Of a stretch of DNA of 64,000 nt, positions 3,031-59,037 are shown one piece after another. Source of the stretch: Malus domestica (lineage: Eukaryota > Streptophyta > Magnoliopsida > Rosales > Rosaceae); assembly GCF_042453785.1 (NCBI RefSeq), contig NC_091674.1, positions 19,069,001-19,133,000 on the forward strand. Direction: 5' to 3'. The notes under the pieces are model-generated. The model made no database searches and was not told the DNA's origin. It was given only the letters and a program-made list of their open reading frames with translations. The translations under genes and the position numbers were made by a program. Each line of letters opens with the position of its first letter. The stretch's first letter is position 1.

Positions 3031-3035
3031 ATTGG

Positions 3036-4082
3036 TGTAAACACGAAATTTTCCTGAAACGAAAGATACAAGAACAACGTGCACAAAATAATATTTGTAT
3101 TTGATGATTTTGGGTTACAATCTCTCTTAAATTTGATCCTCTGATTCAATCTCCGTAAGGCGTTGATTTGTGGATGTGGGATTGATCCAGAGGGCCGTTG
3201 GGCTTGATCTAAGGATGAACGTTCTTCAAGGGCCGTGGACTTGATCTTGAAGGTGGATTTGAGCAGATCTTCAAAGGGGCTTTTGGGCTTGATCTTTGAA
3301 GAACAGTGATGAACGGATCTCCAGGGGCTTTTGGGCTTTGATCTTGAAGAACGATTGGACGTGTGGATTTGTTGATGTTGTTGATCCAAGGGGCCGTCGG
3401 GGCTTGATCTTAGAAGAACGATGAACGAAGAACGAAGAACACTTTCTTCAAGGGCCGTCGGGGCTTGATCTTGAATTTGGTGGAAGTTCTTCACAGGGCC
3501 GTCGGGGCTTGATCTTGAAGGTGGATGATTGTTGATCCAAGGGGCCGTCGGGGCTTGATCTTGGAAGAATGATGAATGAAGAACGAAGAACACTTTCTTC
3601 AAGGGCCGTCGGGGCTTGATCTTGAAGGAGGATAATTGTTGATCCAAGGGGCCGTCGGGGCTTGATCTTGGAAGAATGATGAACGAAGAACGAAGAACAC
3701 TTTCTTCAAGGGCCGTCGGGGCTTGATCTTGAAGGTGGATGATTGTTGATCAAAAAGGGCTTTCTTGATCTTTCGGGAATTGCTTGAGAGCTTCGGAGTT
3801 TCAGAGCTTCAGAGCTTCAAGGTGTAATATGAATTCCTCCCCTCAAATGAATGAATTAGCCTTATATTTATAGAAATTTCCAAGGCCTAATTTTGAATAT
3901 AATATTCCATATGAAATAAGTCGTTTCTGCCAGGTGTTGACACGTGTCCTATTTGATGACTTTTCCAATTTATTTCAATTTTTTGTTTAGACACACGCTA
4001 CGTGTAAAATTTATGTAATACATGAGCGTTGAAACTTTGATTTATCGGTCAACATTTATTTACCGAAATTTCGATGTCTACA
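3036..4082 (-). repeat. 3' LTR, complete
   Basis: The LTR is 1047 bp. In the minus orientation it begins TGTAGACATCG and ends TGTTTACA. It holds an irregular minisatellite with core GGCCGTCGGGGCTTGATCTT (plus-strand reading), with a repeated unit of about 107 bp between about 3450 and 3740. A minus-strand TATA-like box lies near 3868-3876. Over the final ~280 bp shared with the other LTR about five substitutions and a few small indels are visible, suggesting a fairly recent insertion. Confidence 0.9.
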
Positions 4083-4100
4083 AATGCCCCCACTTCAAGG
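4083..4100 (-). other. Polypurine tract
   Basis: Read on the minus strand, GAAGTGGGGGCATT immediately precedes the 3' LTR start TGTAGACA. A G-rich purine run at this exact place is the expected plus-strand primer of reverse transcription. Confidence 0.8.
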
Positions 4101-5600
4101 CGCGTCGTATACATGTGCTTGTCACGTGTAGGAGATGCGTTTTGAAGTCCCTTAATGTAGATGTCGATCCAAGGGCCGTCGAGGCTTGATCTTGAATTGG
4201 GCTGGAGATTTCTTCAATGGCCGTTGAGGCTTGATCTTGAATTGGGTTGGAGATTTCTTCAAGGGCCGTCGAGGCTTGATCTTGAAGGTTGAAATTGGAC
4301 CACAAGGAGCTTCATGTGGTAGATGATCTTTGGCTTTGGTAGTGGATGAATCGGCACGTATTTTGTTGCGCTTGTTGACTTTCCACAGCTTTGATCTTGA
4401 ACTAGGTTAGAGGATTTTCTGGATTCCTCCAATTGTTGATTTTCCACAGCTTATTCTTGAACTGGATTTGATTCAAATATGGTGGACGCTTGATCTTGAA
4501 TCGGACTTGTGATTTCCTCAAGGGCCGTCGAGGCTTGATCTTGAATTTGGCCGGAAACTTCTTCAAGGGCCGTTGAGGCTTGATTCTTGAAGGTTGACTC
4601 GAACACATGGCAAGCAGGCACGAGGTGAAGGTGACGGCTTGTTGCTTTGTTCAATCTTTCTAATTCACACCTGAGCAGTTTGGTCAATGGTATGATCTTC
4701 AAGATTGATGGGTTCTTCTTCCAGTTGGTGACTTGATCTTTAAGGATTTGATCCAAGGATGGTGAAACGGCACATACAGCCCACAACGCCTAGCAAGTCG
4801 ACCCAAGAATTTGAGGGTCAAAACGAGTCCTCCACCCAGAGTGATTGCAAACCTGATGATATGAGATACTTTTGATTTTGAAGAAGTAGCGGATGAATCG
4901 ACACGTGCTTTGTTGTGCTTGTCTCCACATGCTTCAATGTATCATTTTCCCTTGTTTTATCTATTCTTCTGGCAGAATGTAGCATCTTCTCGAGTTCTTC
5001 AGCTCAAACTCCTTCTGCTGAGCTGACTGTGCAGGCTGCATTCTTCTCTGCTTGTTTCTTCAGGCAGATGTGGCAGCTTCTTGAGTTCCTCAGCTCGGAC
5101 TCCTTCTACTGAGTTGACTGTGAAGACTGCATTCTTCTCTGCTTGTTTCTTCTGCACGTTGTCTCCACATGCTGCAAGGTATCATTTTCACTTGCCTTAT
5201 CTGTTCTTCAGGCAAATGTGGCATCCGAGTTTGAGTGGAGGTTCCAGCATATTGTTTTCTTTATCCTTGTCTTTGTAGGTAAGAACAAGGACAAAGGAAA
5301 GGACAGGGAGAACGCATGATATGAGATACTCTTGCTTTCTACCCTGGTGATATGAGATACTTTTGCTTTGGTGTCATTTGTTTGCAGAGGTACCCTAAGG
5401 AATAAGAAACATTGAGTAACTCGAGAGGCTTCGTTGGGAAGGCATTCTCAGAGATGAAGAAAGGTTCTCGGAGATGAAGAAAGGTTATGTATGTCTGCCA
5501 TGCTATGGAGGGTGAAGGTGGACAGTTATAGGAAATTCTTTAGTACCTGTAGAGGTACTATTCTTTTACTCATGTCGGCAACCAATGCGTGATTGATCAG
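4101..5600. other. Non-coding internal spacer with LTR-like minisatellite copies
   Basis: From about 4165 to 4600 the core GGCCGTCGAGGCTTGATCTT recurs, a diverged relative of the minisatellite inside the LTRs. From 4900 to 5260 a CT-rich segment contains an imperfect direct duplication around GCATTCTTCTCTGCTTGTTTC (near 5038 and 5128). Several ORFs span these repeats on both strands, but their composition follows the repeat units and none resembles a protein family. Confidence 0.6.
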
Positions 5601-5639
5601 TATGCCTTCACGTGCTTTCTTCTTTATCAAAAATCTTCG

Positions 5640-5905
5640 ACAAATTGTCCGTAATTTCCGCCAAGCTGAGTGTGCATGTGACAGGTGTTGACGAGGCTGA
5701 AAAAGACTGGCGCCTCTTCGATATCTGGGATCGGCGCTTCGATAAATTGCCCGTGATTTCCGCAAAGCTGAGTTTGCACGTGACGGGTGCTGACGAGGCT
5801 GAAAAAGACTGGCGCCTCTTCGATATCTGGGATTGGTGCTTTAACAAACTGCCCGTGATTTCCGCAAAGCTGAGTTTGCGCGTGACGGGTGCTAACGCGT
5901 CTGGA
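5640..5905. repeat. 102-bp tandem repeat, about 2.6 copies
   Basis: The segment beginning TTTCCGC (positions 5655, 5757 and 5859) repeats with a period of exactly 102 bp and contains GACGAGGCTGAAAAAGACTG. Because 102 is a multiple of three, long ORFs are open on both strands. These are probably by-products. The array lies just upstream of the coiled-coil gene and is a candidate promoter or leader repeat. Confidence 0.85.
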
Positions 5906-5989
5906 AAAGCAAGATGCTTCTCCGATTTCTGAGCTTGCCTCTTCGAATTCTGAGCTCGTTTCTTCAATCTCTGAACTCCCGTCGAGTGT

Positions 5990-6000
5990 TGATTTTTATA
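5990..6000 (+). promoter_or_regulatory. TATA-like box of the coiled-coil cargo gene
   Basis: ATTTTTATAGAG at about 5991 lies roughly 120 bp upstream of the ATG at 6116. This leaves a leader of about 90 bases. The box is weak and its assignment rests on position only. Confidence 0.35.
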
Positions 6001-6115
6001 GAGGCACGCAGTTCGTTTCAAAGCACACTTGAATTTTTTGCTTGTAGAAAACTCCCTTCTTGTACTTCTAAGATCTTGATTTGTCTGACCTCTTCTTTCT
6101 TCAACACCTTTGAAA

Positions 6116-6781
6116 ATGTCTGGACCCTCCGACCATCGTTTTGACTTAAATCTTGGTGAAGAGGCAGTCCCGCCTTCCCCAGACAACATATGGCGCCCAT
6201 CCTTCATATCCCCTACTGGTCCTCTTATCGTTGGGGATTCGGTGGTGAAGAATGATATGACTGCTGCGGTGGTGGCCCGAAACCTTGTCACTCCCAGAGA
6301 TAACAGACTACTTTCCAAACGGTCTGATGAGTTGGCTGTTAAGGATTCTTTGGCTCTCAGTGTGCAGTGTGCAGGTTCTGTGTCTAATATGGCCCAACGC
6401 CTATTTGCTCGAACCCGTCAAGTTGAATCATTGGCAGCTGAGGTGATAAGTCTCAAACAGGAGATTAGAGGGTTCAAGCAAGAGAATAAACAGTTTCATA
6501 AGCTCGCACATAGCTATGCGACAAACATGAAGATGAAGATTGACCAGATGCAGGAATCTGATGGTCAGATTTTACTTGATCATCGGAGGTTTGTGGGTTT
6601 GTTCCAGCAGCATTTGCCTTCGTCTTCTAGGGCTGTACCGCGTAATGAAGCTCCAAATGATCAACCTTCGGTGCCTTCTCCTTCTGGGGTTCCACCGAGT
6701 GATGATGCTCTGAATAATCACCCTCTGGTGCCTCTCCGATCTGGGGCTCCGCCGAGTACTGAGGCACCACCTGATCAATGA
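6116..6781 (+). CDS. Coiled-coil cargo protein of the retrotransposon, antisense to pol
   Basis: This is an uninterrupted 221-residue frame starting MSGPSDHRFDLNL at the ATG in AAAATGTC (an earlier in-frame ATG at 6110 is possible). Residues ~95-140 form heptad-rich helix (ESLAAEVISLKQEI...) consistent with a coiled coil. The C-terminal third is Pro/Ser-rich with two imperfect repeats (SVPSPSGVPPSDDAL, LVPLRSGAPPSTEA). The N-terminus holds FDLNL, which resembles the plant EAR repression motif, although one short match can arise by chance. I do not recognise the family. It lies inside the element between pol and the 3' LTR, in the same direction as the plant-mobile-domain gene. Unlike pol it carries no stop codon. 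Confidence 0.65.
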   Translation: MSGPSDHRFDLNLGEEAVPPSPDNIWRPSFISPTGPLIVGDSVVKNDMTAAVVARNLVTPRDNRLLSKRSDELAVKDSLALSVQCAGSVSNMAQRLFARTRQVESLAAEVISLKQEIRGFKQENKQFHKLAHSYATNMKMKIDQMQESDGQILLDHRRFVGLFQQHLPSSSRAVPRNEAPNDQPSVPSPSGVPPSDDALNNHPLVPLRSGAPPSTEAPPDQ

Positions 6782-6799
6782 AGGCTTTTGTTTGTTTGC

Positions 6800-7400
6800 A
6801 CTTTTCTTTTTTTTTTTTTTTTTTTTTTGGTATGTAAATGTTCCGTCTGTAATTTTTCCAGAGAAATCAATGAAATGGACTTTATTTCTCTCAATGCATT
6901 TGTTTTTTTTTCTTCATGTGGTGCAATCCGCAACATCCTTTTTTTTTTCTTATTTTCTTTTTTTTTTTTTTAATTTATATATTTATTTTTTATTTATTTT
7001 TTTTCTTTTCAGATGGTCCCTCCTTTTTTTTATATTCTTTTTTTATTATTATAATTTTTTTCTTTTCAATGGTGCAATCCGCACCATCCCCTTTTTATTT
7101 TTTTTATTATTTTTTTATTTTATATATATATTTTTTTATATTTTTTTATTATATATTTTTTTTCTTTTCAGATGGTGCAATCCGCACCATCCCCCCCCTT
7201 TTTTTTATATTTTTTTTAAAATTTTTTTTTCTTTTGAGATGGTGCAATCCGCACCATCCCCCCCTTTTTTTAAATTTATTTATTATTTATTATTTATTTA
7301 TTTAATTTTTTTATATTATTTTTTATATTTTTATATTTTTTTCCTTTTTAGATGGTGCAATCCGCACCATCTTTTTTTTTTTTTTTTTTTTTTTAAATCA
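6800..7400. repeat. T-rich tract with repeated GGTGC hairpins
   Basis: Poly-T and TTTA-rich DNA is punctuated by at least five copies of GATGGTGCAATCCGCACCAT (around 6917, 7069, 7173, 7240 and 7352; the first is degenerate). Each copy is an inverted repeat, ATGGTGC-loop-GCACCAT. Several are preceded by TTCTTTTCAG. The apparent Phe-rich ORFs across it are composition artefacts. It separates the two cargo genes. Confidence 0.85.
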
Positions 7401-7419
7401 TCACCCTCTCTTCTTTTTT

Positions 7420-7429
7420 TCCTATAAAT
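7420..7429 (+). promoter_or_regulatory. TATA box for the plant mobile domain gene
   Basis: CCTATAAATACCC near 7419-7431 is a strong plant TATA box and lies downstream of the T-rich block. A likely leader intron follows. The donor is TTTTAG|GTATTT at 7521/7522 and the acceptor TTGCAG at 7918, three bases before the ATG at 7921. Confidence 0.55.
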
Positions 7430-7549
7430 ACCCTCATAGGTTGCTTGGCAATGGGCAAAAGATTGAGCAGAGGGAGGATGCAGACAGGTGACATCGTGGT
7501 GCAGTAACTGCAAGCTTTTAGGTATTTTTTAAGCTTTTTTTTTTTGGAC

Positions 7550-7552
<3 letters not shown>

Positions 7553-7585
<33 letters not shown>

Positions 7586-7686
7586 CTGTTTATGATGCTA
7601 GAATATATATACATTCCTTCAATCGTCCCATCACCATCATTGTGTACACATTATATATATTTGTATATGGAACTTGGTTGTCGTGT

Positions 7687-7736
<50 letters not shown>

Positions 7737-7770
7737 CACACACACCCATATACGCACACACATATAATAC
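7553..7770. repeat. (TA)n and compound (TA)(TG)(CA) microsatellites
   Basis: An uninterrupted (TA)n tract lies at about 7553-7583, and a compound TA-TG-CA microsatellite at about 7690-7768. The TG and CA halves are mutually complementary and could fold back. Both lie inside the inferred leader intron of the mobile domain gene. Confidence 0.9.
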
Positions 7771-7920
7771 CATATAATGTGTCTATTTTTATACACAGTG
7801 TCTTTGTGCCCTCACTGATGGATTTCTTTGCTACTGTAACGTGTTTTGAAGGACCGTCTTGTAGCTGCTCACTTTTGCCGTGCCTATTCAAGCTTTGTGG
7901 CTGACTTTTCCGTTGCAGTC

Positions 7921-10900
7921 ATGGTGCTTCTTAAGTGCTTTAAAAACAACATCATCACCATTCTTGCGAAGGAAGGCGATCCACAAGATAGTGGAACGAC
8001 ATTGAAGCTTTATGTGCCACTGACTGGCCCTAAGGCACTTGTTCTTCCTATAAAAGACAACTCCATGCATATTAAGTCGTGGTCTTCTGAGGTATTTTGA
8101 GAGCTGGTAGACTCCGTTCGACCAACTACAAAGAGGAAGGTGTGCATATCGAGGATTCTTATCTTGAACTCTTCGCACCATGATCGTGCCAACCCTTTGG
8201 TTAAGTCTAAGCTTCTTGGTGATCGTATCCGTAGCGGAGCTATAGCTTGGAATAGCACCCTGTCGACTACTGGAGGAGCCGCCTTCGTTGAGTTTTATTG
8301 GGAATGGCTTGAAGATGTCTTGAGCCGCTCCAAAGATGTACTTACCAACACGGGCCTTTATCATGCTGTATACGCATCTTTGTTTAGTTATGATCGCCAT
8401 CCTTCCGTCATTCGTGCATTCTTTGAGCATTGGTGTTCAGCGACCAACACGCTTCACACGGCTCAAGGGGAGATGTCGATTTCACTTAGGGATCTCCACA
8501 AGCTAAGGGGTCTGCCCATCCAGGGAAAATTTTATGACGAGGTTGTTCCTAGTGTGGAGGAGTTTTCTTGTCGCAACAGTCGAGGATTGCCTGCTAGCTG
8601 CCGCTATTTGTTCTGGGCGTACCATAAGCTTTTCCAAGAGGCCCCCTGTAAGTCAGGCGTGAAGATTTCTTCGTGGATCCGGTTTTGGTATTGGGATGCC
8701 GTGAAGTATAAGAGGCCTTCGAAAAAAAATGGTCGTAACAAAACAACCAGGCCTAAGGGAGATTCTGATCCGTCAGGCGTCATTGGTCTAGCTGGGCGCC
8801 GTACCCCTAACGAGTTAAGGACATTTGAGGATCTTGGCGTGGCGTTAGAGCACTTGGAAGAATCTTACTTAGCTGCATTCTTAGCTTGTTGGCTTTGTAA
8901 GTTTGTCTTCCCTAAAGACGATGTCAACTTGATTCGTCCTGGAGTCTTCAAAGTTGCTAGCAAGATGGCTGCAAGCGAATCTTTTAGCCTTGCTATACCG
9001 GTCTTAGCTAATATTTACGATGGCTTAAGAGTTGTTTCGGACTTGGCAAGCACTGAAGATCGTGATGCGGTACTTCCTTACCATTATGTGTACGGTTGGT
9101 TGGGTGAGTACTTTGGTACTCATTTTTCTTCGTCAACTTTAGACAAGTCTGAGCCTTCCGTAGTCAAGCTAGGACCTTTAATGACGAAGTATTCTGGCGT
9201 GTTTTCTGCGAAGAGTCTCGACGATCAGCAGGCGCAAGCATTATTTAGAAGTTGTGAAGGATTGAAGATGGATCGCCTGGCGAGGTTTGGCACGGTGCGG
9301 CGAGACATCATAGATGATTCACATATCCACTTTTCAGACTTGTCTTACCTTATAAGTCTCCGCTCAGGGTATGTTTCTTTGCGGCAAGAAGACCGATGTA
9401 TTATTCAGCCGTACAGTCCTCATCGCTTTAGTAGGCAATTTGGTTTTGTCCAAAATGTGCCAGGCACATTGAGGGAGAAAGCTCGATCAGAATCCTTGCA
9501 AGCCGTGTATATGCATTGGGAGTCATGTACCTGTGCATGTACAAATGCTTCTATCACCCTGCCGACCAAGGACGAGTTCAAGAGTAATCCAGTAACCCGT
9601 GTTTACGTACGTTGGTGGTCAAAGGTATATTATGAGAATTTAGGGACGACAAGTGGTACCAATTCTTCCCATTCATATCATGATGCGTTAAAAGAGGGTT
9701 GTTCTGTGGTTCCTACACAGTTGGTACCTTTTAATTGTGCGAGTGTCACTCATTTGCGAGATAAACCTGTAGCTTTAGCTCCTCAATGCCTATGTTTGTC
9801 TCCTCGACATTCGGATGCTTCTGAAGAGGCAGGAGATGAAGGTGACTCGCACGAAGATGGATTTATTTTGGAGCAGCGTCAACAAGTTTCAAACAAACGA
9901 CCACTTGAGGATGCTCAGGCTGACAGTGATATCAATTTTCGTCATAAGAAGAAAGAAATGTTTAGACCTCCTCAATTCGATGATCGTGCGCCATTTGAGA
10001 GAGATGTATGTACTTTATTTTCTCTCATGATTTCTTCTGCTTTTATGATTTTGGCTTTTGTTTCTAACATCTTTCTTTGTTGTCTTTAGGTTGGGCCTTC
10101 CCGTCATTTTGATTTGGCAACTGCAGATGTTTATTCCTATACGGAGATGCTATTTATAGGCGGCCTACCTACAGATAGAGAGATCGGGGATCCGCCTGGT
10201 GTAGAGCTTGTTCCAAATCCGCCGAACTTCCTGAGTTTGCCATGTGTAGGTGGAGGTATGCAAGAACTTGTCATGCGTCCAACACCTTTGCCAGCTAGCT
10301 CTGAGATCTCTTTGAGAAGGCCGAACCTTAGCGGTACTGAGCGACTCATCCGTCGTATCAGTCTTGGTGCGGCAATGGAGATCAAGGGCCATATTGAAGC
10401 GAGGATTTCTAAGTGTCCACTGGAAGACCTTACGTTGCTCAATGAGGATTTGTTGAAGTTTGTTTCTGCGATTGACAACCTTAACGTTGATTCCTCATCC
10501 TTGAAGATCAAGATTGTCGAACTTATGGCTGCCTCGATTGAGTATTCTTCCTTGCGTGCTATTTCCTTGGAGAAGTTGAGTCCAGATGTTAGAGCTCATC
10601 AGCTAGCAACGATAAACTCGTCACTGGCTCAAGTCCGGTCTTTTCAGCAAGCTGTTTCAGGAAATTATCAAGTCACGGAGACTTCTTTAACTTCTGTCCA
10701 GGGGCGTCTAGATGCATTGGTGCAAGAGCGGGAGCAGTTGGTAATCGAAGCATCGCAACTTGAAAGTGTTCTTGCGGAGCAGGGAACTGCACTTTCTCAG
10801 TACCAAGAGGAGATTTCGTGCCTAAAACGAGAGAAAGGCATGGCTATGGAGTTGCCCATCTTGTCTCCCATCGAGGTAGAGACTTTGAAGACTTTGGAAG

Positions 10901-10950
10901 GCTCGCTTGAAGAGCGCCTTCGTAGTTTTAAGGACATAGTTTTCAAGTAG
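7921..10950 (+). CDS. Plant mobile domain (PMD) protein, antisense cargo of the retrotransposon
   Basis: Exon 1 runs 7921-10005 and exon 2 10090-10950, with an 84-bp GT-AG intron at 10006-10089 that keeps the frame (phase 0). The product is about 980 residues. The first ~500 residues match the plant mobile domain (aminotransferase-like PMD) seen in MAIN/MAIL proteins and in many transposons, for example HPSVIRAFFEHWCSATNT, LRDLHKLRGLPIQGKFYD, WLGEYFGTHF. A basic patch (RHKKKE) suggests nuclear entry, and the C-terminal ~120 residues are coiled-coil. One in-frame TGA at 8098-8100 interrupts residue ~60. The surrounding frame continues perfectly and CGA to TGA would explain it. A shorter protein could start downstream (ATG at 8473). 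Transcription would converge on pol. Role of the cargo is unknown; mimicry of or interference with host PMD silencing proteins is inference. Confidence 0.82.
8098..8100 (+). other. Premature stop in PMD gene
   Basis: The TGA lies between EVF and ELVDSV in an otherwise continuous frame. Arg (CGA) is the most economical ancestor, a C to T change at a CpG site. Confidence 0.75.
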
Positions 10951-11065
10951 TACCTTATGTTTTTTTCGCCAGTCTTTTTAATAATAAGGCTTTGGAGCCA
11001 ACTCCTTCTTCTAGAGAAATAAAGCACTTATGTTCTTGAATTTGCTCTTCAATCTTCAAAGTGTT

Positions 11066-11088
11066 ATATATATATATATATATATATA
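11066..11088. repeat. (TA)n microsatellite between convergent genes
   Basis: This pure TA run lies in the ~360-bp gap between the PMD stop codon (10950) and the pol stop codon (11307), where convergent transcripts would end. Confidence 0.9.
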
Positions 11089-11306
11089 TTTAGATGGTGT
11101 GACTGTACTTGAAGTTTTGATGCTTCAAGTTGCCTACGTACCCTTTGTTGAGGAGGGATCAAGTCATAACGTAGTTCAAATGAGTGATGAATTTAACAGT
11201 GATTTTGATGATGATTTTACCGTACACAGTTTATGCTCTTGCCGGCCAGGAGCTTTGGCTCATGCAGTTTAGGCTCGTGCGAACAAAGAGCATGAGTTGT
11301 CGCCTT

Positions 11307-14300
11307 TCAGGGGTAGTAGCGCTTCAAGAATCTACCATTGATAGGGCCGATCTTCAAGCCGTCTTCCGCCATGATTAAGTAGGCGCCATTGGTGTAGACT
11401 TCTTGTATTACATATGGTCCATCCCATTTTGACGTGAACTTGCTCTTTGTCTTGTGAGTTGTGATGATAGGCCTATGCAATGAAAGGACGATATCTCCCA
11501 TTTGAAAAGAACGAGGGAAAACTTTCTTGTTGAAGGCCTTGGAGAGTCGTGCTTGATAACACTCCAAGTGTTGTTGGGCTTCGAGTCTTTTCTCATCCAG
11601 GGCTTCCAGCTCTTGAAGGCGCAACTTTGCATTCTCTTCGTCAGTCAAGCCTTCTTGTAGAGCCATCCTTAGCGAGGGGATTTGACTTTCGAGTGGTAGA
11701 ACAGCTTCCACGCCATATACGAGAGAATAAGGTGTAGCTTGGGTAGGCGTTCTATATGTCGTCCTGTATGCCCAAAGTGCTTCGCCTATTCTTTCATGCC
11801 AGTCTTTCTTTGTTCTGCAGATTACCTTCTTCAGGAGGTTGCACAATGTCTTGTTAAATGCTTCTGCAAGACCGTTGGCCGGAGCATGATACATGGAGGA
11901 TTTATGCTGCTTGAACTTGTATTTCTCGCAGAGCTCGTCCACAAGTCGGTTGGAGAACTGTTTTCCGTTGTCAGTGACAATGTAGCGAGGCACGCCATAT
12001 CGGTGGATGATATGTTCCTTGATAAAACGGACGACAGTTTCTTTCTTGACTTCCTTCAGGGGTATGGCTTCAGCCCACTTGGAGAAGTAATCTGTTACAG
12101 CCAGGATGTAAGCTTCTCCTGCAGATGACTTTGGCGCAATTGGTCCTACTACGTCTAATCCCCATGCATCGAATGGCCATGAAGTAGCTGTAGGGTGTAA
12201 TGGTTCAGGCGGTTAATGTATGAAGTTGGCGTGAAATTGGCAGGCTTGGCACCTTTTGGCGTGTTCTAGGCAGTCCTTTACCATGCTTGGCCAGTAGTAA
12301 CCCATTCTTTTGAGCTGGAAATGAAGCTTCGGTCCGGACTGATGCGCTCCACATATTCCTGAGTGTGCTTCTTCCATGGCTTGATTGGCTTCTTCATCGC
12401 CTAAGCATCTCATAAGTACTCCTTAAAAAGATCGCCGGTAGAGTGTCTCTTTGTAATAGAGGAAGCGATGCGCTCGTCGACGTACTTCAGAACGGTGTTT
12501 TGGATCATCTGGGAGTATTCCATGCTCCAAGTAGTTGATCAGCGGCTGTCTCCATTCTTCAACGTTGACCGGAAGTATGGAAATAACATTTGTATCACTT
12601 AGTACCATTTCAGTGACAGGCGGGATTACCCATCTTTGGCAGACTGGCACATTTGTGGCTTCGTCTTCTCCTAACGTTATGCTCGAGGCTAGGTTGGCGA
12701 GAGCGTCTGCCATTTGATTCTCTTTTCTTGGCACGTGTTCTAGTGTTACGGCCTCAAATCTTTGTAGCAATTGCGTTGCCAGCCGGAAGTATGGGATGAG
12801 ATCGTCTTTCCTAACCTCATATTCAGTCAAGAGTTGATTGATTATGAGCTTGGAGTCGCCATATATCTCAAGGGTTATGATTTCCATGTTGATTGCCATT
12901 TGGAGCCCGATGATCAGTGCTTGGTACTCAGCGACGTTGTTGGAGCATAATTCGCTTAGTTGGAATGAATAAGGTAGTATTTACCTTTGTGGCGACATGA
13001 ATACTACTCCTGCCCCCGCTCTGTCTGCTCGTGCAGATCCGTCGAAGAACATCGTCCATGTCGGAAATATGTCGATGTAGAACACCTCTTCGTCAGGCAA
13101 GTTGTCTGAGATTTTCCAATCGGCTGGGATTGGATGGTCGGCAAGGAAGTCTGCTAGCGCTTGTCCCTTGATGGCTTTAGCTGGGACGTAGATGATCTCG
13201 TATTGATTGAGAAGCAATGCCCATTTAGCTAGTCGTCCTGTCAAAACTGGCTTGGACATGACATATTTGACCGGGTCAGCTTTAGCAACCAAGTGGATGG
13301 TGTAAGCATGCATGTAATGTCTGAGCTTTTGGATGGCAAACATCAAGGCAAGGCACATTTTTTCTATTGGGGAGTAGTTCAACTCAGCGCCGGTGAACGT
13401 TCGACTGAGGTAGTAGAACGCTCCTTCTTTCTGGGATTCGTTTTCCTGTGCCAAGAGTGCTCCAACTGAACTTTCCTGAGCAACGATGTACAATATGAGC
13501 GGTTTCCCTGGTACAGGTGCCCCCAGGACAGGTGGACTTGATAAATACTTCTTTATGCTTTCAAAAGCATTGTTGCATGCTTTGTCCCATACGAATGGAA
13601 CATCTTTCTTCATGAGTCGACTGAACGGTTGACAACGCCCTGCAAGGTTGGAGATGAAGCGTCTGATGAAGGCTAGCAGTCCTTGTAGACTTTTCAACTC
13701 GTGCAGGTTTCTTGGCTCGGACATGCTTTGAATGGCCTTGATCTTTGATTGGTCCACTTCAATGCCACGATGCTTGACAATGAAGCCAACGAACTTTCCA
13801 GATGTGACGCCAAATGCACATTTTAACGGGTTCATCTTGAGGTTGTATTTTCGTAACCTTTCGAACACTACTCGCAAATCCTTCAAGTGATCTGGTCTTT
13901 TCTTTGTCTTGACCACCACATCGTCTACATAGCATTCTACATTCTTGTGTAGCATGTCATTGAAGATCTTATGCATTGCGCGTTGATATGTAGCTCCAGC
14001 ATTCTTCAGGCCAAAGGGCATCACCTTGTAGCAGTAGATACCTTTTGGAGTGCGGAAGGCTGTTAGTTCCTCATCTTCAAGAGCCATACGAATTTGATTG
14101 TATCCAGAAGAGCCGTCCATGAATGATAGTGCCTCATGGCCAGTGGTCGCGTCCACCATGATTTCAATGATTGGCAATGGGAAGTCATCCTTTGGGCAAG
14201 CATCATTGAGGTCTCGGAAGTTTACGCAAACACGTATTTATCCAGATTTCTTAAGAACTATGACGATGTTAGAGATCCACTTAGGGTATTGCACCTCTCG

Positions 14301-15170
14301 AATGAAGCCTGCTTCGATCAACTTGTCAATCTCAGCCTCGATTTGTGGGATGAGCTCGGATCGATAACGTCTTTGAGTTTGCTTTATTGGTCGCGTTCCA
14401 GGCTTGACTGCAAGATGATGCATAGCAATGATAGGGTCGAGGCCGGGCATTTCCTTGTAGGTCCAAGTAAAGACGTCCTTGTACTCTAATAGCAGCTGGT
14501 AATACTTCTCTATCTCGTCTGCACTTAGTAATGCACTTACGAAGATAGGCTTTGGTTCCTCACTTGTGCCTAAGTTGAGTTCTTTGAGATCGTCAACTGT
14601 GGCTTGCCCTCCATCTTCGAGTTGTGACGGTGCTGCAATGGCATCTTCCTCGAGGATTTCATCTTCTTCACCTTCTTGGATTGTGATGTGGAAGACGTCT
14701 TGGGCCTCTTCTTCGGTGTTGACCTCTCGAGCTTGTTGGCATGAAGATTGTCCAGTGTGGATGATGGTGCGCCTTTTCACTTTCAATGATCCAACTGTGT
14801 TAACCTCTAAAATTGCTTGGCGCTTTATTCTTGAAGGAATGGAACTTCGAACGTCATCCTTTTCTGCCAGACGATCGATCTTTTCTACTTCTGGTGTTGT
14901 CTTTCCCCTTTTAGAAGGCTCTTTGGCTTCTCCAAGTCTTTCCATAACTGACTGTCGTGGAGGAAAACTAGTCGTATCGCTTTGCTTCTTAGGTTTCGAT
15001 AACCTTTTGAAAACAGAGCTTCGAGATACTGACGTGTTAAGCCTTTTGAAGACGGAAGTTCTGTTTTGACCGCCAATGAGTTTAGGTGCCGAAACTCTGG
15101 TCCTTGAACGATTCATTCTATCAAATACTGACGTCTGAGGGGCAGTTCGAGGCTCCTCTTATCTTGTATA
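11307..15170 (-). pseudogene. Retrotransposon pol: RT, two RNase H-like domains, integrase
   Basis: This is one continuous frame broken by four TAA codons at 14238-14240, 12981-12983, 12423-12425 and 12213-12215. In order: an RT leader (QRRYRSELIPQIEAEIDKLI), the RT palm with YVDD catalytic motif, the Ty3 RNase H region (SRTFTGAELNYSPIEKMCLAL), then a second RNase H-like segment (MFFDGSARADRAGAGVVF) typical of Tat elements. Integrase follows with its HHCC zinc finger (HSGICGAH...CQAC), D (WGLDVVGPI), D (IVTDNGKQF) and E (NGLAEAFNKT). The chromodomain is absent. Family-conserved Gln at several of the stop positions makes CAA to TAA changes likely. A one-base loss near 15160 puts this frame out of register with the upstream protease frame. 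Confidence 0.92.
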
Positions 15171-16348
15171 ATGCTCACGATGATGTGTTGAGCGCTAGCA
15201 TTTTTTGCCTTGCTGGAGATCTTCACCGGTGCATTTGGTGTGAAGCCAAGTCCAGCTTTGTTGTTGTTGACCCCGTAACCATGCTCCTCCAACTTCTTCT
15301 GAGTTTTAGTAAGATCACGTTCTTTGTCTTTGATGGTGTTCAAATCCTTCTTTCCCAAATTTGCAGAGGAGGTGAAGTTGTACCCAGCTTTCGACATGAG
15401 TTTGTAGGCGTTTGGATCAAAACCTTCTTCGGTCCTCTTGGTTGGGAGAAAGCTTGGTTCTACCCCTTTTGGCAGGCCTTTTATGAAGCCTTGTGATGGC
15501 CTTGCAACCTTAATGTCGCTTAGCTGTGTCAGAGGCAAAACTGCATTTGTTTTGAGCAACTTTACATTATCCATGTGCCGCTGTGTATCGGCTTTGCTTA
15601 CTGCAGTTTCAAATGGGGATTGACCATTCTTTCTTCTCGACGTTGGGATGTATCAGAAAACGGGTATGTTTGGACCATTTGAAGGCGTCCTATTCCCTCT
15701 GGTTGTTGCAGGTTTAGCAAGCTCATCGTCGTTTTTGTTTGAAGATGGCATAGCTTCTTCTTCTTGCTTCTTGGGTACGGCTTGCCACTCCTGTTTTTTA
15801 GGTGTTGCTTTACCCATGGATTTGATCTCTTTTGGAAGAGTTTCGGGCACCATGTCTTCATCCATGTAGAACTTGGCATCTGCGAAATGTGATTCGGCTT
15901 CGGTGAATGGCTTGGTGTCGCCATAGATCACCTTTACTCCTTCTCGGTAAAATTTTAAGCATTGGTGAAGGGTGGACGGTACTACTCCATTCGCATGGAT
16001 CCAAGGCCTTCCTAAGAGCAAACTGTAGGAAGTTCTTGCATCAATCACGTGGAATATTGTGCTTGACTTGAGTTCACCAATGGTCATCTCTACTCGGATC
16101 ATGCCCATCGTTCTTTGTCCTCCTTGATTAAAACCTTGGATTAGTAGACGGCTTAGGGATAGTTCATCCACCTTGATGCCGATTGTGGTCATTGTTGACT
16201 TTGGCATGATATTTATGGCTGATCCGCCATCCACAAGCATGCGGCTGACTTTGTGCTCCCTTACGTAACCAGAGATGAAGAGAGGTCGGTTGTGAGGCTT
16301 GGATCCTAGCAGCAAGTCTTCGTCGGTGAAGTGGATTGCATCCTCGGC
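15113..16348 (-). pseudogene. Retrotransposon protease and linker
   Basis: The retroviral-type aspartic protease shows MLVDGGSAINIMP (Asp in a D-G-G context, as common in this branch) and LLGRPWIH. A Lys/Glu-rich linker follows. A TGA at 15653-15655 interrupts it between PVF and YIP; CGA to TGA is the simplest explanation. The frame ends at 15113 overlapping the next, after an inferred single-base deletion. At 16348/16349 the protein code abruptly meets LTR minisatellite DNA, so gag and the protease N-terminal side are gone. Confidence 0.88.
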
Positions 16349-16928
16349 GGGGCTTGATCTTGAAGGAGGATGATTGTTGATCCAAGGGGCCGTCGGGGCT
16401 TGATCTTGGAAGAATGATGAATGAAGAACGAAGAACACTTTCTTCAAGGGCCGTCGGGGCTTGATCTTGAAGGAGGATGATTGTTGATCCAAGGGGCCGT
16501 CGGGGCTTGATCTTGGAAGAATGATGAACGAAGAACGAAGAACACTTTCTTCAAGGGCCGTCGGGGCTTGATCTTGAAGGTGGATGATTGTTGATCAAAA
16601 AGGGCTTTCTTGATCTTTCGGGAATTGCTTGAGAGCTTCGAGTTTCAGAGCTTCAGAGCTTCAAGGTGTAATATGAATTCCTCCCCTCAAATGAATGAAT
16701 TAGCCTTCTATTTATAGAAATTTCCAAGGCCTAATTTTGAATATAATATTCCAGATGAAATAAGTCGTTTCTGCCAGGTGTTGACACGTGTCCTGTTTGA
16801 TGACTTTTCCAATTTATTTCGATTTTTTGTTTAGACACACGCTACGTGTAAAATTTATGTAATACATAAGCGTTGAAACTTTTTGATTTATCGGTCAACA
16901 TTTATTTACCGAAATTTCGATGTCTACA
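16349..16928 (-). repeat. 5' LTR, truncated
   Basis: The right-hand LTR retains 580 bp matching the left LTR from about 3502 to 4082. The remaining ~470 bp, the primer-binding site and gag were removed by a deletion ending inside the minisatellite. A minus-strand TATA-like box (TATAAATAG) lies at about 16708-16716. Because the LTR repeats are open in this frame, they fuse to the protease into a 279-codon chimeric ORF (15653-16492). Confidence 0.88.
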
Positions 16929-16933
16929 ATTGG

Positions 16934-19437: not shown

Positions 19438-19797
19438 TGTTTATACCATACTTAGGGCCTCCGTATTTAGACCTCGTATAAATACTCGAGGGACTTAAAT
19501 GTAATTATGTAATAAAGGAATGGGCAAATATGTAATAAGTGAGGAGCTCTTATTCTATAAAAGGACTCATCACCCTCACAATTAGAAAAGGCCATTTCTT
19601 AAGCCATGGGAAGAGTTCTCTCACCCTCAGAAGCTCTCTCCCTCACTCCCCTCACTTCTCAAAGAAATATAATAATCACTGTGGATGTAGCCCAAACCTT
19701 GGGGTGAACCACAATACATCTTGTGTTATTTACTTTCTTGCAGATTCACGGTCGGATTTACGTTGTTCCAAGACCCCTCCGATTTTGTGCATCAACA
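19438..19797 (+). repeat. 5' LTR of the gene-fragment element
   Basis: The LTR is 360 bp with TATAAAAG at about 19556 following GAGGAGCTCTTATTC. The matching 3' LTR has the same length. Confidence 0.93.
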
Positions 19798-23171: not shown

Positions 23172-23531
23172 TGTTTATACCATACTTCGGGCCTCCATAT
23201 TTAGACCTCGTATAAATACTTGGGGGACTTAAATGTAATTACGTAATAAAGGAAGAGGCAAATATGTAATAAGTAAGGAGCCCTTATTCTATAAAAAGAC
23301 TCATCACCCTCACAATTAAAGGAGGTCATTTCTTAGGCTATGGGAAGAGTTCTCTCACCCTCAGAAGCTCTCTCCCTCACTCCCCTCATTTCTTAGAGAA
23401 ATACAATAATCAATGTGGACGTAGCCCAAACCTTGGGGTGAACCACGATACATCTTGTGTTATTTACTTTCTTGCAGATTCACGGTCGGATTTACGTTGT
23501 TCCAAGACCCCTCCGGTTTTGTGCATCAACA
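23172..23531 (+). repeat. 3' LTR of the gene-fragment element
   Basis: The LTR is 360 bp and nearly identical to 19438-19797, with a handful of substitutions and small compensating indels visible. Confidence 0.93.
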
Positions 23532-47369: not shown

Positions 47370-48870
47370 GATTTCCACTGTAATACCTTTCCCTATCAAT
47401 TGTCTGGGACGATGCTGGCCTTCGCAGTACGAGACCAATATTCCTTGACAAGTTGCCCAAAAAGTGACCCTTCATTTTTCATTAGCTTCATTGGCTACTC
47501 ATACTCTACTAATCTCACTGCCATTGTAAATTTCGCTAAATAAATTAACTAAAACCACATAAATGAGAGATTTGTAGCATAATGCAATGCTTACAATCAC
47601 TAATAGAAAGAACTTTAGTACAGTCCATCACGGTAGGCATCCTATGAGCCACGGTTATTACAGAGTGCAGTCTGTTCTTATAGTCTTCTGCAGAATAGAG
47701 TCTGTTGTATTGTCCATTGACGCAGTAGCTTCATCGAGGACTACTATCCGACTCCTTTTCAACAACGCGAGTCCCAAACAAAGTCGCTGTCCCATGCTCC
47801 AGTTTGTTCCATCTTGTACAACTGCAATCTAGTTTGTTAGTTGTTTTATTGACACTGAAATAACTCGTACGAAACGTAGTTTTCTTACCTAACAATCCAG
47901 GCCCTCTTCTTTTTCTTCAATGGCCTCGCGTAACTGGCATTTCTCAAGATTGATCAGAAGATAAAAGATTATGGACATGATAGATGGCTTAATGGACGAG
48001 TCTTCTTCCTCCCTTCTATTCAATTGCTTCATAAATATTAAGTACCACGTTCGTGCTGGATCACACTGTCTCAGTTGTGGAATATCTTGCTTACCTTTCG
48101 TCATTAATGGATTTAACCACCAAAATGACATTGAGCTAAATAAATAACATTGCTTTTGTGAAAGGAGTCACGTTGTCATTTGAACTGACTTTACCATTGA
48201 TATCCGATTCTACGCAGTGAAAAGGTGCTCAGAAGGCGTAATTGTGGATTTTTGAATTGCCTTTCAAACAATCGCTTCCCTGAAATGCACTAAATAGCAA
48301 AAGAATTGATCCAGGGACATAAAAACTGTTTCAAACAATCTTTAACCGATACTTCCTCATCAACAATAGCTTTGCAAATTGATCAACTGCAAAGAAAAAC
48401 TGCAGTCAAGAAGGCTAGTATCGAACAAGATTTCGTTATCACAATATGTTGCAGCTGTGGGTTGTTTAGGCTTATGGTAAAAGCCATACGAAACCATGTG
48501 AACCTTGAAATAGTAAAACTAGCTATTCATGGTGGGGAAAACTCAGCATTTACTTTCTCGAAGACTGTCCATATCCCAAAACCAAAAGAGGCCAAAGCCA
48601 AACCAGAATTGAAGGCTGCCGAGATTATAGACAAGACTGAGATGGCACCATAACCTTCTTTGATGATATTTTGCATATGACCATACATAACAAGATAAAC
48701 AGAAGCAAAATATCAGCTGCAATGACCAAAATATGGTTGATACATGAATCTTGATTGGTAATGGCTAAAATTCCAGAGCTGCCTTCATTTATGGCCTCAG
48801 TTGAACAATCGGAACTACTGCATGTCAACAAGGTCCAGAAAACATCTCCAATTGTTGCGTCTCAGTGAGG
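47370..48870 (-). pseudogene. ABCC10-like pseudogene with internal deletion
   Basis: Pieces of an ABCC10 paralogue occur in the right order but with a gap. The N-terminal membrane region lies at about 48300-48830 and a SFWWLNPLMTKGKQDIPQL segment at 47970-48131. This runs directly into [18 protein letters not shown], the exon 9 equivalent, at about 47890-47945. Then follow the NBD2 exon ([28 protein letters not shown]) at about 47590-47830 and the last exon ([19 protein letters not shown]) at about 47390-47510. Both nucleotide-binding Walker A exons and most membrane helices are deleted. Stops interrupt the rest. Confidence 0.85.
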
Positions 48871-50272
48871 TCGAAAGTCTGCAGTCCTACACTACTACAA
48901 GGGAAAAGTGTTTCAAAGAAAAAATGGATGTGCATCTAACATTCAGGGTTTTGAATGGCATAAGATGAAGGGCTCGAAAACATGAAGTACGGCAGCAATT
49001 CATGTTGTTCAACACTGGGATAATAATATTCCAAATCTTGTAAGTTGGAGATCAAAAAGCACACACAGGGAACAAATATGAACTGCCATGTATAACTAAA
49101 AAATTATTTGTAGAGTTGGTGCAGATAAACAACCTGAACCATCTCCCTCCACATATATAGAGATTGTTTTTTTCCTGAAAATTCTGTGCTGAATATTGCA
49201 GATGAAGCTGCATGGGATCATATTGGAAAGAACTAATAGGAGTTGAAAACGAAACTTATCAAACATTTAGCAAAATAAGATTGCAGCGTTTTATATCACT
49301 TGAAAAACATGCATTACATTAGATAAGCTCAGTAGCAAAACCACTCTCCTGCTCTAACTTGCTCTTGAATCAGATATAGGACACGAAAACACGAAAATAT
49401 CACAATCCATGTTGTTCAAACAACTGAGATAATACACCAAATCTAGTTCAAGGTCACTCTATATCCTATTTTACCTTAATGACCCCACATGCGAAATTAT
49501 AAAAGAGACCGTTTAAGATTAAACAATTCCATCGAATTCAGGCTGATTGTTCGTATGACAGCATCTACTGTATGAGGAATGTCAATGTATGTTACTTACA
49601 CATCCCTTGGGGCTTTGAATCAGTAAGTTGGAGACAACATAAAGCATAGAGTACAAATATTTCACCACAAGAAAAAGCTTCTGGAAATTGATAACCTTAA
49701 TTGATAACCTTGAAGCTAAAACCAAAACTAATTGATAACCTTGAAGCTAAAACCAAAACTAATTGGTCCAGTTGAACGCTCTTCCCTGATGTAAACAGAC
49801 AATTGAGCAAGAAAACATGTGATACACAAGACAAAGTAATAATATAATAGACACCAAGAAGAATCAAGACTAGTGGCTTGAGAAAATCTAGCATTTTAAT
49901 CTGCTCTTGTAGGAAAGTTGAAATCATTTTAATTTGCTTTTTCAAAAGTTGGAATCAACAACACAATACAATCCCCACTCTCCAACATAAGGGGAATATC
50001 ATTGATTGAACAGAAAGCTGACATTTTCTTTCCTCTTTTATCTAGACTAGTTGTCTTCAAAAAGAAATGTTCTTAGGCAATTTTCAGGATAAAAAATAAA
50101 TGCTCTTAGGCATGTTCTTTAAATGCTGCAAGGAGATACTTCTGCAATCTCAGCTCCTTGATCATACAAACTTATAACAAAATCACATATTAAGAATTTA
50201 AAGTCGAATTCCAATGGTGCAAACAAGGCGATACTTTCTTCGGCACCTTTTACGCAATAATACCTTTCCTTA
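48871..50272. other. Duplicated 5' flank and spacer between ABCC copies
   Basis: 48880-49260 resembles the 5' flank of the intact ABCC gene (55660-56020), for example TGCAGATGAAGCTG followed by TTGGAAAGAACTA. 49790-49880 resembles 57750-57830 (GAAAACATGTGAT). A 31-bp unit (TTGATAACCTTGAAGCTAAA...) is duplicated at 49698-49760. No ORF is supported. Confidence 0.6.
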
Positions 50273-53200
50273 TTAGTCGTCTGAGTGGATGCCGGCAATG
50301 GCAGCGCGAGACCAGTATTCTTTGACTAGCTGCCCAAACAATGAGCCCTCATTCTTCATCAGCTTCATTGGCTCATCATACTCTACTATTCTCCCTGTGA
50401 ACATAAATTTTGCTAATTAACAACTAAATCAACATAAATAAGAGTTTTATAACTTAATGCAATGCTTACCATCACTAATAGCAAGTACTTTAGTGCAGTC
50501 CATCACGGTTGGTATCCTATGAGCCACGGTTATTACAGTGCAGTTAGCAAATTCTGTTCTTATAGTTTTCTGCAGAATAGAGTCTGTTGCATTGTCCATT
50601 GACGCAGTAGCTTCATCAAGGACTAGTATCCGGCTCCTCTTCAACAAAGCGCGTCCCAAACAAAATAGTTGTCGCTGTCCCATGCTCCAGTTTGTTCCAT
50701 CTTGTACAACTGCAATCCAGGTTTTTAGTTTTTGTTTTATTGACACCGAAAATAACTCCTACAAGACATTTTTCTTACCTAAAGAATCCAGGCCCTCTTC
50801 TTTTTCCTCAATGACCTCGCGTAACTGACATTTCTCTAAAACCTTTCACACATGGATCGGAAGATCAGTAAAATACAGTTACAGTAAGAAGCATGAATAT
50901 GTTTACTTGTAGGCATGTTCTGATGAAAAATTATCAGCAAGTATTAAATTTAAACAAAAACTTTACCTCCCATATTTCATGATCAGTATGTTCTGATAAG
51001 GGGTCTAGATTGAATCTCACAGATCCATTGAACAGTGTTGGATCTTGTGGTATGATCCCAAAACGCGATCTTAAATCATGAAGCCCGATTTTGCAAATGT
51101 CATAGTCATCGACAATGACCCTTCCCTCCGTAGGCTCCACCAAACGAAACAAAACGCTGATAAGAGTAGTCTTCCCACTTCCAGTCCGGCCAACAATCCC
51201 AATTTTGTACCCTCCTTCAATTATGCAGTTTATCCCACGAAGAACTAGCGGAGCATTTGGCCTATATCGTACCTGCATAAATTCATAAGCTATCATATTG
51301 AAGTACCATTGTTCTTAGGGCTACAGTCTTTAGTATATCTTTGGACACTAACCTTTAAATCATGTATTTCCACTTTACCAACAGTTGGCCAACTGTGCAC
51401 AGGTCGGTTTTCTTCTATTATTTCTGGAGCCTCACTGGGAATATGCATGTATTGCTCTACTCTTTCTACTGATATCATTGAATTCTCTAGCATGCATTGG
51501 AATTGGACTGAAACTACGAGGTATAAATTTAAGGACAGACCAAAAGATAGTGCCATCCCAATAAAACCTGTAAAAAGTTGAAGCGAAATGTTAGACAGTA
51601 TATCATATATATGGCTAAATAAAATCCATTTGACACACCAAAGGTGATACACTGGAATGTTTACGAACCAGAGGAAGATGCGTCAAACTGAATCAAAGTG
51701 ATTGCAAGTGCTGAGGCTGAGAGAATAATCGCACATAGCAATTCAAGACGTTCGATCAACCACTCATTCACTGAAAACCTATTGAAGTCAGCACTTGCAT
51801 TTGCATCAATAAATTCCAAGTTTTTCGAGAAGAACCGATCCTCCTCTCCAAAAGCTCTGATTGTCAAGGATCCAGCAATAGATTCGGCAAGGTGGCTTGC
51901 AAGCGCAGACTTAGTCGTGCCATTCATCCGCATTAACTCTTTTGCAGAAGCAAAGTAGTAATTCTGTTTGCAGCAAAGAAAATCAAGTACAGATTTGCTG
52001 CTCAGAAAAGGCAAAAATTTAGGAAATCATTCAAGTGCTTCAATCTCAAGGGTATACCTGAAGTAGTACAGTAACATAAATCGTGGGTATAATCAGAAGC
52101 ACGATTGGCCAAGTAATCAAAACCAAAACTATATAAACGCTGTATGTCATCAAAGTTGAACCAACAGAAATCCCCAACTTGAAAGCTACTTCAAGGTCGA
52201 CAATGTTCATATCATTAGAGACCTGCACAAAATGGACAGTGCAAATGTAAGTTCCATTTGGTACTCTGCATTAGAACATTTCAAGCTTTGTTCTTTCAAA
52301 GAACTTAAGTCTTACCCGACTAAGTATCCTTCCCACTGGTGTCGAGTCATAGAACAGCATTGGTGCTCGGAAAAGAGAGTTGAGTAGTGTGTCGAAAATG
52401 GATTTTGATGTTCCACATCCTAATTCAACTAAGCAGAAGACTCTAAGAAGCACACCAAATGACATGATGCACATTATCATTGTATACACAATGAATAGTT
52501 TGACTCTTGATACGCTATAATCCTGAAGCTTGGAAGCCAACCAATAGGATTGAATTAATTGGCCGACTATGAATATCAAATGAAAAAAGATTGACAAGGA
52601 GAAGTACAAAAATCCCTTGCGTTGTTTCAAGTACTGAATGTATGGTTTGAAACCAGTGTCCCCGGTCTCCCTCTCTTCTTTCTTAATTAATTGATCTCCT
52701 GAAGATTCCGTTTGCTGTACTACAGTTTTAACTTTCACAATCTCCTCCCCAGATGATTTATGTTGTCTAGTAGAAGCGTACTCCACTTGCCTCTCGCAAC
52801 CAGCAGTGCTGTGGTGTGCATGGACAAGGCCTTGGAATTCGTCACAAGAAGCGAGTAACTCTCCGTAAGAAGCTGATCTAAAGATTTTCCCCGAAGATAT
52901 CAACTGTGAAGAAAAACAGATATTACTAAGAAAACTTGCAGATCACTGGACAGAGTAAGAAAAACTGATATCAACCTTCTGAAATGTTTACTTACCAAGA
53001 TAGAATTAAAAGCTGGAAGGAAATCCACTTGGTGTGTCACAAGTAAAACCGTCTTCCCTGACAGAGCTCCCATGATATATTCCTGACAAATTTTCAAATT
53101 AGATTTAAATAGGAAAAAGAGGGGGTTTCAATTACCTTCAGGTGCAAGTTACGACTTACATTGAAAAGGTGTGTCGCCGTATGGGCATCAACTGCGCTGA

Positions 53201-55639: not shown

Positions 55640-56130
55640 TGTTGCGTCTCAGTAAGGTCGAAAATCTACACGATTACAAGAAAAGCGTTTGAAAGAAGAA
55701 AAAGATCTGCATCTAAAATTCATGTTTTTGAAATGCATGAGATGAAGGACTCAAAAACTCGAAAGTACTGCAGTTCATGTTGTTCAACAACTGAGATAAT
55801 ATTAAGTTAAAGATGAAACAGGACACATACGGCACAAATACGAACTGCCATGTATGAATAAAACGTTAATGTAACTGCCATGTATGATAAACAATTTGAA
55901 CCATTCCCACCACATATTTAAAAACTTTTTTGTTTCTTCTAAAAATTGCAGAATCTGCAGATGAAGCTGTATATCATGCACCACAAGTTGGAAAGAACTA
56001 GGAGCATCGGAAAACGAAAAATAGAAACATTTAGCAAAATAAGATTGCTGTGGTCTATACTCTATATCGCTCAAGAAACATGCATAAGAAAACTTACAGT
56101 AGATTAAGCTGAAGTGCAAATCAGCCTTCC
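55640..56130 (-). promoter_or_regulatory. Presumed 5' flank of the intact ABCC gene
   Basis: The ~490 bp upstream of the start codon is shared, with divergence, with the flank of the 47-48 kb pseudogene copy. A duplication unit therefore included the promoter. Specific elements are not assigned with confidence. Confidence 0.45.
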
Positions 56131-56139
56131 GGTCTAGCT

Positions 56140-56740
56140 TGCTCTTGAAGTCTCAGAGTTTAGTTTGTCATGCATAAAACCCGAGTTCGAATCTCTCTTC
56201 CCGCATTGATTTTAAAACCCGTCTTCAAAAGGCACGTGAAACATCTTGTAGGACAGTGTCATTGCATTATGTATGGCATGCCAAATTCATAACTTCTTTT
56301 TGGGTAAGATGTCACATCAGTGGACCTTTCGGCTTCATAATACATGGTGGCTTAACCTTTGGAAAAAAAGAGGAAATTACAATGTTTTTTAGCCTTTTGC
56401 TTTCACACTATCCAACTGTCTAAAGAAATGTTTTTCCCATCATGTTTTCCTGGCTCCAGTATTCACTGGCAGACATTGCAATTAGGGCTTGTGTGGTGTC
56501 TAGGATTAAATTAAAATTAATAACCCCTTAGGTTCAAAGTATATTGAAGGTAAGAAGATAGTGGTTTTTGGGATCAGAAGAGGATTAGACATAAGGGAAG
56601 CTTCTCCCTTCTAATCCTCCCATTTTAGAGAGGATTGGAATGGATAAGTTTTCTTCTTAAGTAATCCATCTCCAATATCCAAGTTAGCCACAACTTTACC
56701 ATTTCTTTGTTAGTGGCTTATCCATTCCAATCCAAACCTC
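56140..56740. other. Spacer with a tRNA B-box-like site
   Basis: CCCGAGTTCGAATCTC near 56180-56195 resembles a Pol III B box and may belong to an old SINE, but the A box and ends are not clear. The remainder is AT-rich with no gene. Confidence 0.4.
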
Positions 56741-56756
56741 TATACCGAACGAGAGG

Positions 56757-56960
56757 GATTCGCGTTAGCCCAGTTGGTGATGAGCGTATGAGCTCATAAA
56801 AGTGCCACCGGATGGTACGATTCCTTCTACTGCAATAACAAATAAATACACACCCATGTCGCGGGTGATATCACCTTATGATGAGTGTATAAGCTCACAA
56901 AAGTGCACCAGACAAAAGCTGAGGTGCAACCGGGTGTTGACGCCCTTTTGCTCGTCTCCC
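56757..56960 (+). mobile_element. Candidate tRNA-derived SINE
   Basis: TTAGCCCAGTTGGTGATGAG (about 56765-56784) is an A-box-like segment, and GGTACGATTCC (about 56815-56825) is a B-box-like segment at a suitable distance. The part with TATGAGCTCATAAAAGTGCC and the partial repeat GTATAAGCTCACAAAAGTGC follow. No target duplication was established. Confidence 0.45.
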
Positions 56961-59036: not shown

Positions 59037-59037
59037 C

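Follow-up and report, generated by a model that had tools for sequence, protein, structure and literature searches.

A plant mobile domain gene retained by an apple Tat retrotransposon family, and its possible role in element-specific anti-silencing

What does a plant mobile domain (PMD) protein do for a retrotransposon that carries its gene? The question is raised by positions 3036-16928 of a 64,000-nucleotide stretch of the Malus domestica genome (the whole stretch is hereafter called the window), where a first, sequence-only reading had recognized a Tat-like element with pol on the minus strand and two genes on the plus strand, one of them encoding a PMD protein. Published work already reports PMD genes in Ty3 elements and antisense ORFs in Tat elements, and proposes that TE-encoded PMD proteins counter silencing; the element type, too, is known, and the interest of the locus lies in a testable mechanism for a domain whose function is called unknown in passages of two papers (PMC5418596, PMC8616336).

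ORFs, Pfam matches, the LTR alignment and a protein alignment bear out that description. A single Ty3 LTR retrotransposon of the Tat branch, in minus orientation, fills the interval, and the ATTGG target site duplication that had been claimed for it brackets 3036-16928 exactly (Table 1). Its LTRs are identical at 577 of 586 aligned bases (the 3' LTR against the remaining piece of the 5' LTR), so the insertion is recent; at 1.3e-8 substitutions per site per year, the plant rate in common use, its age would be about 0.6 million years. The purine-rich tract adjoining the 3' LTR is presumably the PPT. Extra ORFs in Ogre and Retand Ty3 elements of the Tat clade were reportedly described by Steinbauerova in 2011. 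Pol runs in the order protease, reverse transcriptase with RNase H, second RNase H and integrase (Pfam, the protease and integrase pieces scoring below cut-offs), and protease and reverse transcriptase lie in different frames of what is a broken copy. The second RNase H is of the archaeal type (E 1.6e-11) and separate from the PF17917 match, which places the element in the Tat clade. Its position between RNase H and integrase is the one that parts of PMC6317226 give as the mark of the angiosperm Tat lineages Ogre and Retand. Ogre appears more likely than Retand, because the same paper reports PMD in 57% of Ogre elements and because TRP28 (PF04195), a Retand feature, gave no match at E <=0.1 in the three plus-strand ORFs of this copy; TRP28 is reported in 23% of Retand elements (PMC6317226) and, as an antisense ORF, in 97% of Retand clusters, being absent from 2 of 63 (PMC11963269). 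As in the Ogre and Retand elements described in sections of these two papers, we find the archaeal-type RNase H before the integrase, a long region between pol and the 3' LTR, antisense ORFs and tandem repeats. The cassette had been called unusual, a description that needs narrowing, since PMD is frequent in Ogre and antisense ORFs are reported for all Retand cluster representatives (PMC11963269); what sets the element apart is the pairing of two selected antisense genes, PMD and coiled-coil, with a palindrome array between them, together with the loss of gag in this copy.

Table 1 Features of the element in window coordinates
Feature	Position	Strand	Basis or remark
Target site duplication ATTGG, 3' side of element	3031..3035	.	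sequence
3' LTR, 1,047 bp, internal 107-bp repeats	3036..4082	-	sequence and repeat analysis
Purine-rich tract adjoining 3' LTR	4083..4100	-	sequence
45-bp-spaced repeats, kin to LTR repeats	4133..4629	.	
102-bp tandem repeats, three, upstream of coiled-coil gene	5635..5940	.	
Coiled-coil cargo gene, 221 aa, open, N-terminal FDLN motif	6116..6778	+	
Palindrome array GATGGTGC-AATCC-GCACCATC	6916..7370	.	four with both GGTGC/GCACC arms, one imperfect
TATAAATA, candidate promoter box of PMD gene	7423..7430	+	
PMD gene exon 1, PF10536 domain, in-frame stop 8098-8100	7921..10005	+	Pfam and protein alignment
PMD gene intron, 84 bp, GT..AG	10006..10089	+	protein alignment and copy comparison
PMD gene exon 2, C-terminal long-helix (coiled-coil) region	10090..10950	+	
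Integrase, C-terminal ORF piece, below Pfam cut-off	11307..11993	-	ORFs and Pfam
Second (archaeal-type) RNase H, PF13456, between RNase H and integrase	12423..12899	-	Pfam
Reverse transcriptase and RNase H ORF piece, PF00078, PF17917	12981..14177	-	Pfam
Pol ORF piece, linker and reverse transcriptase start	14238..15116	-	ORFs
Aspartic protease, Pfam matches under curated cut-offs, N-terminal side fused to truncated LTR	15653..16330	-	
5' LTR, truncated, 584 of 1,047 bp	16345..16928	-	sequence
Target site duplication ATTGG, 5' side	16929..16933	.	sequence

Judged from its sequence, the window copy is a young, dead (i.e., transposition-defective) member of a many-copy family. Compared with the related C5 copy, it has no gag or primer site and retains only the outer part of the 5' LTR, and the frame ahead of its protease continues directly into LTR sequence, where the C5 copy has ~2.3 kb between LTR end and protease, including a gag domain (PF03732, E 5.8e-13). 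The frame from reverse transcriptase to integrase contains four in-frame stops, and apple homologs read through the position of the stop in the PMD gene; the coiled-coil ORF is still open. These losses and stops, in pol as well as in the PMD gene, had escaped the sequence-only reading.

The two cargo genes lie in tandem between integrase and 3' LTR, and the convergent layout suggested earlier applies to the PMD gene and pol, which do not overlap (the PMD stop is at 10950, the end of the integrase ORF at 11307). The profile match (E 1.7e-32 on 8140-10089, 113.4 bits against a curated cut-off of 34.9, profile positions 1-347 of 347) makes the product a member of the PMD family. An intron-containing protein of some 900 or more residues had been expected, and two apple predicted proteins (P0002, P0005) align full-length to 7921-10947 in a two-exon model of approximately 981 aa; this putative exon-intron structure rests on such predicted proteins and on copy comparison, the intron ending in GT and AG in all 13 copies, with the acceptor of L035 out of register. 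In three other predicted proteins (P0001, P0003, P0004) the predicted reading continues into the intron. A disordered, acidic linker joins the PMD domain of the product to a C-terminal region of long helices; a Malus domestica protein matches it at 96% over 69% of its length, and among the best 120 of 289 matches there are relatives in Rosa, Prunus, Rhododendron and other eudicots. The coiled-coil protein gave no Pfam family at cut-off in a Pfam scan. It has 2,046 relatives in the database, and the best 120 of these all carry the name Malus, 113 of them with FDLN near the N-terminus; diverged family copies have LNLN, LDLI, LDLN or LDLS at this position. We take the N-terminal FDLN to resemble EAR-type corepressor-binding motifs.

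In the 651-Mb assembly of the same genome, in which the window lies at C14:19069001-19133000, the window PMD has 71 scored matches (from 830 candidates). Every one of these covers 571 or more of 622 residues, and 28 contain no stop in the match. Twelve other copies (L029-L040) were compared; they are not a random sample, since 10 are the lowest-ranked of the 71 and the other two were stop-free. All 12 have both PMD exons, exon 2 being shortened in some (e.g., L030, L032); the coiled-coil gene lies upstream on the same strand in 11 (absent from L035; the stretches of L034 and L040 cover it only in part), and an integrase faces the PMD gene in 10, the stretches of L030 and L031 containing none. 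A general lack of the cargo in other family members, which the first reading had named as refuting it, is thus not seen; based on these counts, the cargo is a fixed part of the family, not a later insertion; nor did we find inverted repeats of at least 40 bp marking a separate insertion of the cargo, a possibility that had been raised for the PMD gene. Two further proposals fared less well. The candidate box TATAAATA, offered as evidence of an own promoter for the PMD gene, recurs in context in only one of the 12 other copies, the close L039. A leader intron is not established: AG stands directly before TCATG (or TCAAG) in the window and in three of eight other copies compared (L032, L034, L039), is shifted by one base in L033 and L040, and does not occur there in L029, L031 and L037. 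Of the eight copies whose stretch extends that far, six have the 5' leader of the coiled-coil gene.

In a tree of 24 PMD sequences the window family clusters with proteins from Rosa, Rhododendron and other eudicots. The unrooted tree separates it with support 1.000 from the host-type PMDs L001-L003 of the same genome, which are probably genic by their profile scores, and it also stands apart from two single-ORF PMDs (L021, L025). It is likewise distinct from another, second Tat family of apple with a PMD gene, in which integrase is found antisense to PMD at 17 of 18 loci. Identity of the window PMD is 26-27% to L001-L003 and 20% to L004. It shares a Pfam domain with the host PMD-C proteins MAIN, MAIL1 and MAIL2, but it groups away from these host-type PMDs and has a coiled-coil tail. 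PMD-A proteins are described as exclusively Gypsy-encoded across angiosperms (Ikeda 2017, PMC5418596); ours resembles them as a PF10536 protein of a Ty3 element with relatives across eudicots, and differs from their description in being a two-exon protein of ~981 aa with a coiled-coil C-terminal region. A further parallel comes from predicted structure. The predicted fold of the PMD domain is common, over 310 of 362 residues, to that of VANC21 (PDB 9lnj), which ranked first in the PDB search and is reported as the anti-silencing protein of the transposon VANDAL21 (PMC5735166, PMC10398659). Both are TE-encoded, and in both cases short repeats lie in rapidly changing non-coding DNA of the element. 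Unlike VANC21, the window PMD is carried by an LTR retrotransposon, and its DNA binding and anti-silencing are putative; nor do the two share detectable sequence similarity or DUF1985, as a Pfam scan of the window PMD domain up to E 10 listed PF10536 only and 9lnj was absent among the matches listed by PDB sequence searches. The link between PMD and VANC21 folds was not found in one open literature library, and the VANC21 structure paper may already make it.

The repeats in question occupy the spacer that separates the stop of the coiled-coil gene from the start of the PMD gene, with GGTGC arms at 7071, 7174, 7241 and 7354 and an imperfect palindrome at 6920. In the matching spacers of 13 copies the pattern GGTGC-n(0-12)-GCACC was counted 21 times (shuffles give an expectation of 0.15 and a maximum of 2 in 200), against 0 times in 70,864 other bases of 12 copies, 0 elsewhere in the window element and 0 in the 50.1 kb of the window outside the element. 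It is seen in seven of the 13 copies and absent from others, including L031 and L040. The inner spacer varies, i.e., AATCC in the window and at most L039 sites, and other sequences elsewhere. A different palindrome, GTTAAAGCT-TTTCCC-AGCTTTAAC, has one perfect occurrence each in L040 and L033, with near-copies in L040. Among diverged copies this spacer is otherwise alignable in patches only, and the flanking genes are conserved. Symmetric, fast-changing repeats next to the gene for a basic, VANC21-like protein with a coiled coil suggest, post hoc, a protein that binds DNA as a dimer, together with the target that belongs to it.

We tentatively postulate, with somewhat less than even confidence, that the PMD protein, a selected cargo of the Tat family, serves as an anti-silencing factor specific to its element and works like the VANC proteins of VANDAL transposons. 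The targets of its basic PMD domain, for which a VANC21-like fold is predicted, would be short repeats in the fast-changing non-coding region of the element, the best candidates being the palindromes between the two cargo genes. Dimerisation through the C-terminal coiled coil would match sites of two-fold symmetry, and the bound protein would lift DNA methylation, so that the element can be transcribed. The earlier suggestion that the cassette could act on host silencing gains indirectly from the predicted fold match and the palindrome array, though as an idea it is in print already, as a proposal (PMC8616336). A wider generalization is more doubtful still, namely that PMD and VANC domains may form one superfamily of sequence-specific DNA-binding modules, which Tat elements would use for self-directed anti-silencing on fast-evolving palindromic repeats beside the gene, and MAIN/MAIL1 with the opposite sign.

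The two proteins could instead regulate the life cycle of the element (transcription, RNA export, packaging or integration), as some retroviral antisense genes do, the spacer repeats then being cis elements, a terminator or parts of promoters. Such a role has been proposed for Retand antisense ORFs (PMC11963269), and the convergence with pol and the selection on both genes speak for it; we nevertheless regard it as rather unlikely, as the predicted VANC21-like fold would point to silencing, not RNA handling. Also unlikely, in our judgement, is a PMD protein that acts as decoy or dominant-negative partner of the host silencing complex of MAIN/MAIL1 with PP7L, without binding element DNA. Host MAIN/MAIL1 are reported to silence TEs and to bind PP7L (PMC7156037), and both the published counter-silencing proposal (PMC8616336) and the occurrence of PMD-A in Gypsy elements (PMC5418596) would suit a decoy. 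Against it, the window PMD and the host-type PMDs of this genome lie in separate clades and share little sequence identity, the predicted fold of the window PMD matches a DNA-bound anti-silencer, and repeats adjoin its gene.

Coding constraint on both cargo ORFs, a further point on which the first reading can be followed, bears on whether the proteins matter at all. For PMD exon 1, dN/dS is 0.16-0.29 between the window and 11 diverged copies and 0.57 (confidence interval up to 1.02) against the close L039; all 78 pairs together have a median of 0.30, and the upper confidence bound lies below 1 in 76. The coiled-coil gene has a median of 0.28 over 21 pairs (upper bound below 1 in 20), the integrase is stricter (median 0.12, upper bound below 1 in 21 of 21) and PMD exon 2 weaker (median 0.41, upper bound below 1 in 17 of 21), with a value of 1.03 (interval 0.57-2.16) between the window and L034. 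By these ratios both cargo genes are under purifying selection, and active copies are probably more tightly constrained than measured, as most copies are decayed, which pushes dN/dS towards 1. It is thus very unlikely that the antisense genes act chiefly via antisense RNA over pol or via phased small RNAs, even though by its anatomy the PMD gene is transcribed towards pol and phased siRNAs from PMD genes are reported in tea (PMC10673657). Passive cargo, i.e., an unrelated later insertion or a functionless transduced gene, could be read from the broken window copy but is barely credible, and we reject it at the family level based on retention of the genes among copies, dN/dS far below 1 against diverged copies, and relatives in Rosa, Prunus, Rhododendron and other eudicots.

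Divergence along the element is uneven. Against L034 and L040, respectively, dS of the window is 0.55 and 0.71 in PMD exon 1, 0.07 and 0.20 in exon 2, and 0.10 and 0.26 in the integrase, and near 9900 the window becomes abruptly more similar to every diverged copy compared. Given that L034 and L040 are ~90% alike, evenly along the whole stretch, it is the first exon of the window copy and L039 that has a separate history, as if swapped between subfamilies.

In exon 1 of the plant mobile domain (PMD) gene, the window element and its close copy L039 diverge from the other copies of the family (L034, L040 and others) far more than they do in exon 2 or in the integrase, and this excess of divergence suggests, from sequence comparison, that the exon was exchanged between subfamilies. 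The coiled-coil protein starts with the motif FDLN, which is present in 113 of 120 relatives among the matches listed, varies in diverged copies, and is similar to EAR-type corepressor-binding motifs.

A second apple Tat family (L009-L020, L022-L024, L026-L028) also carries a PMD gene, divergent and antisense to the integrase (located in 17 of the 18 loci), with a longest open piece of 448-719 aa; many copies harbor additional ORFs, of ~276 and ~210 aa, that are co-oriented with this gene. Two further loci, L021 on C8 and L025 on C10, encode PMD proteins in single ORFs, of 941 aa and 960 aa respectively, with profile scores between those of the window family and host-type PMDs.

Elsewhere in the window, a pair of direct repeats possibly represents the LTRs of a small element, and the ORFs of the repeated blocks look, by their motifs, like tandemly duplicated ABC transporter genes.

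Positions of features in the window
Feature	Position	Description
Coiled-coil protein start	6116-6160	FDLN
PMD gene and integrase region compared among copies	7921-11993	
Direct repeat pair	19438-19797 and 23172-23531	360 bp, 93% identity
Repeated blocks	47381-64000	78-87% identity, long minus-strand ORFs
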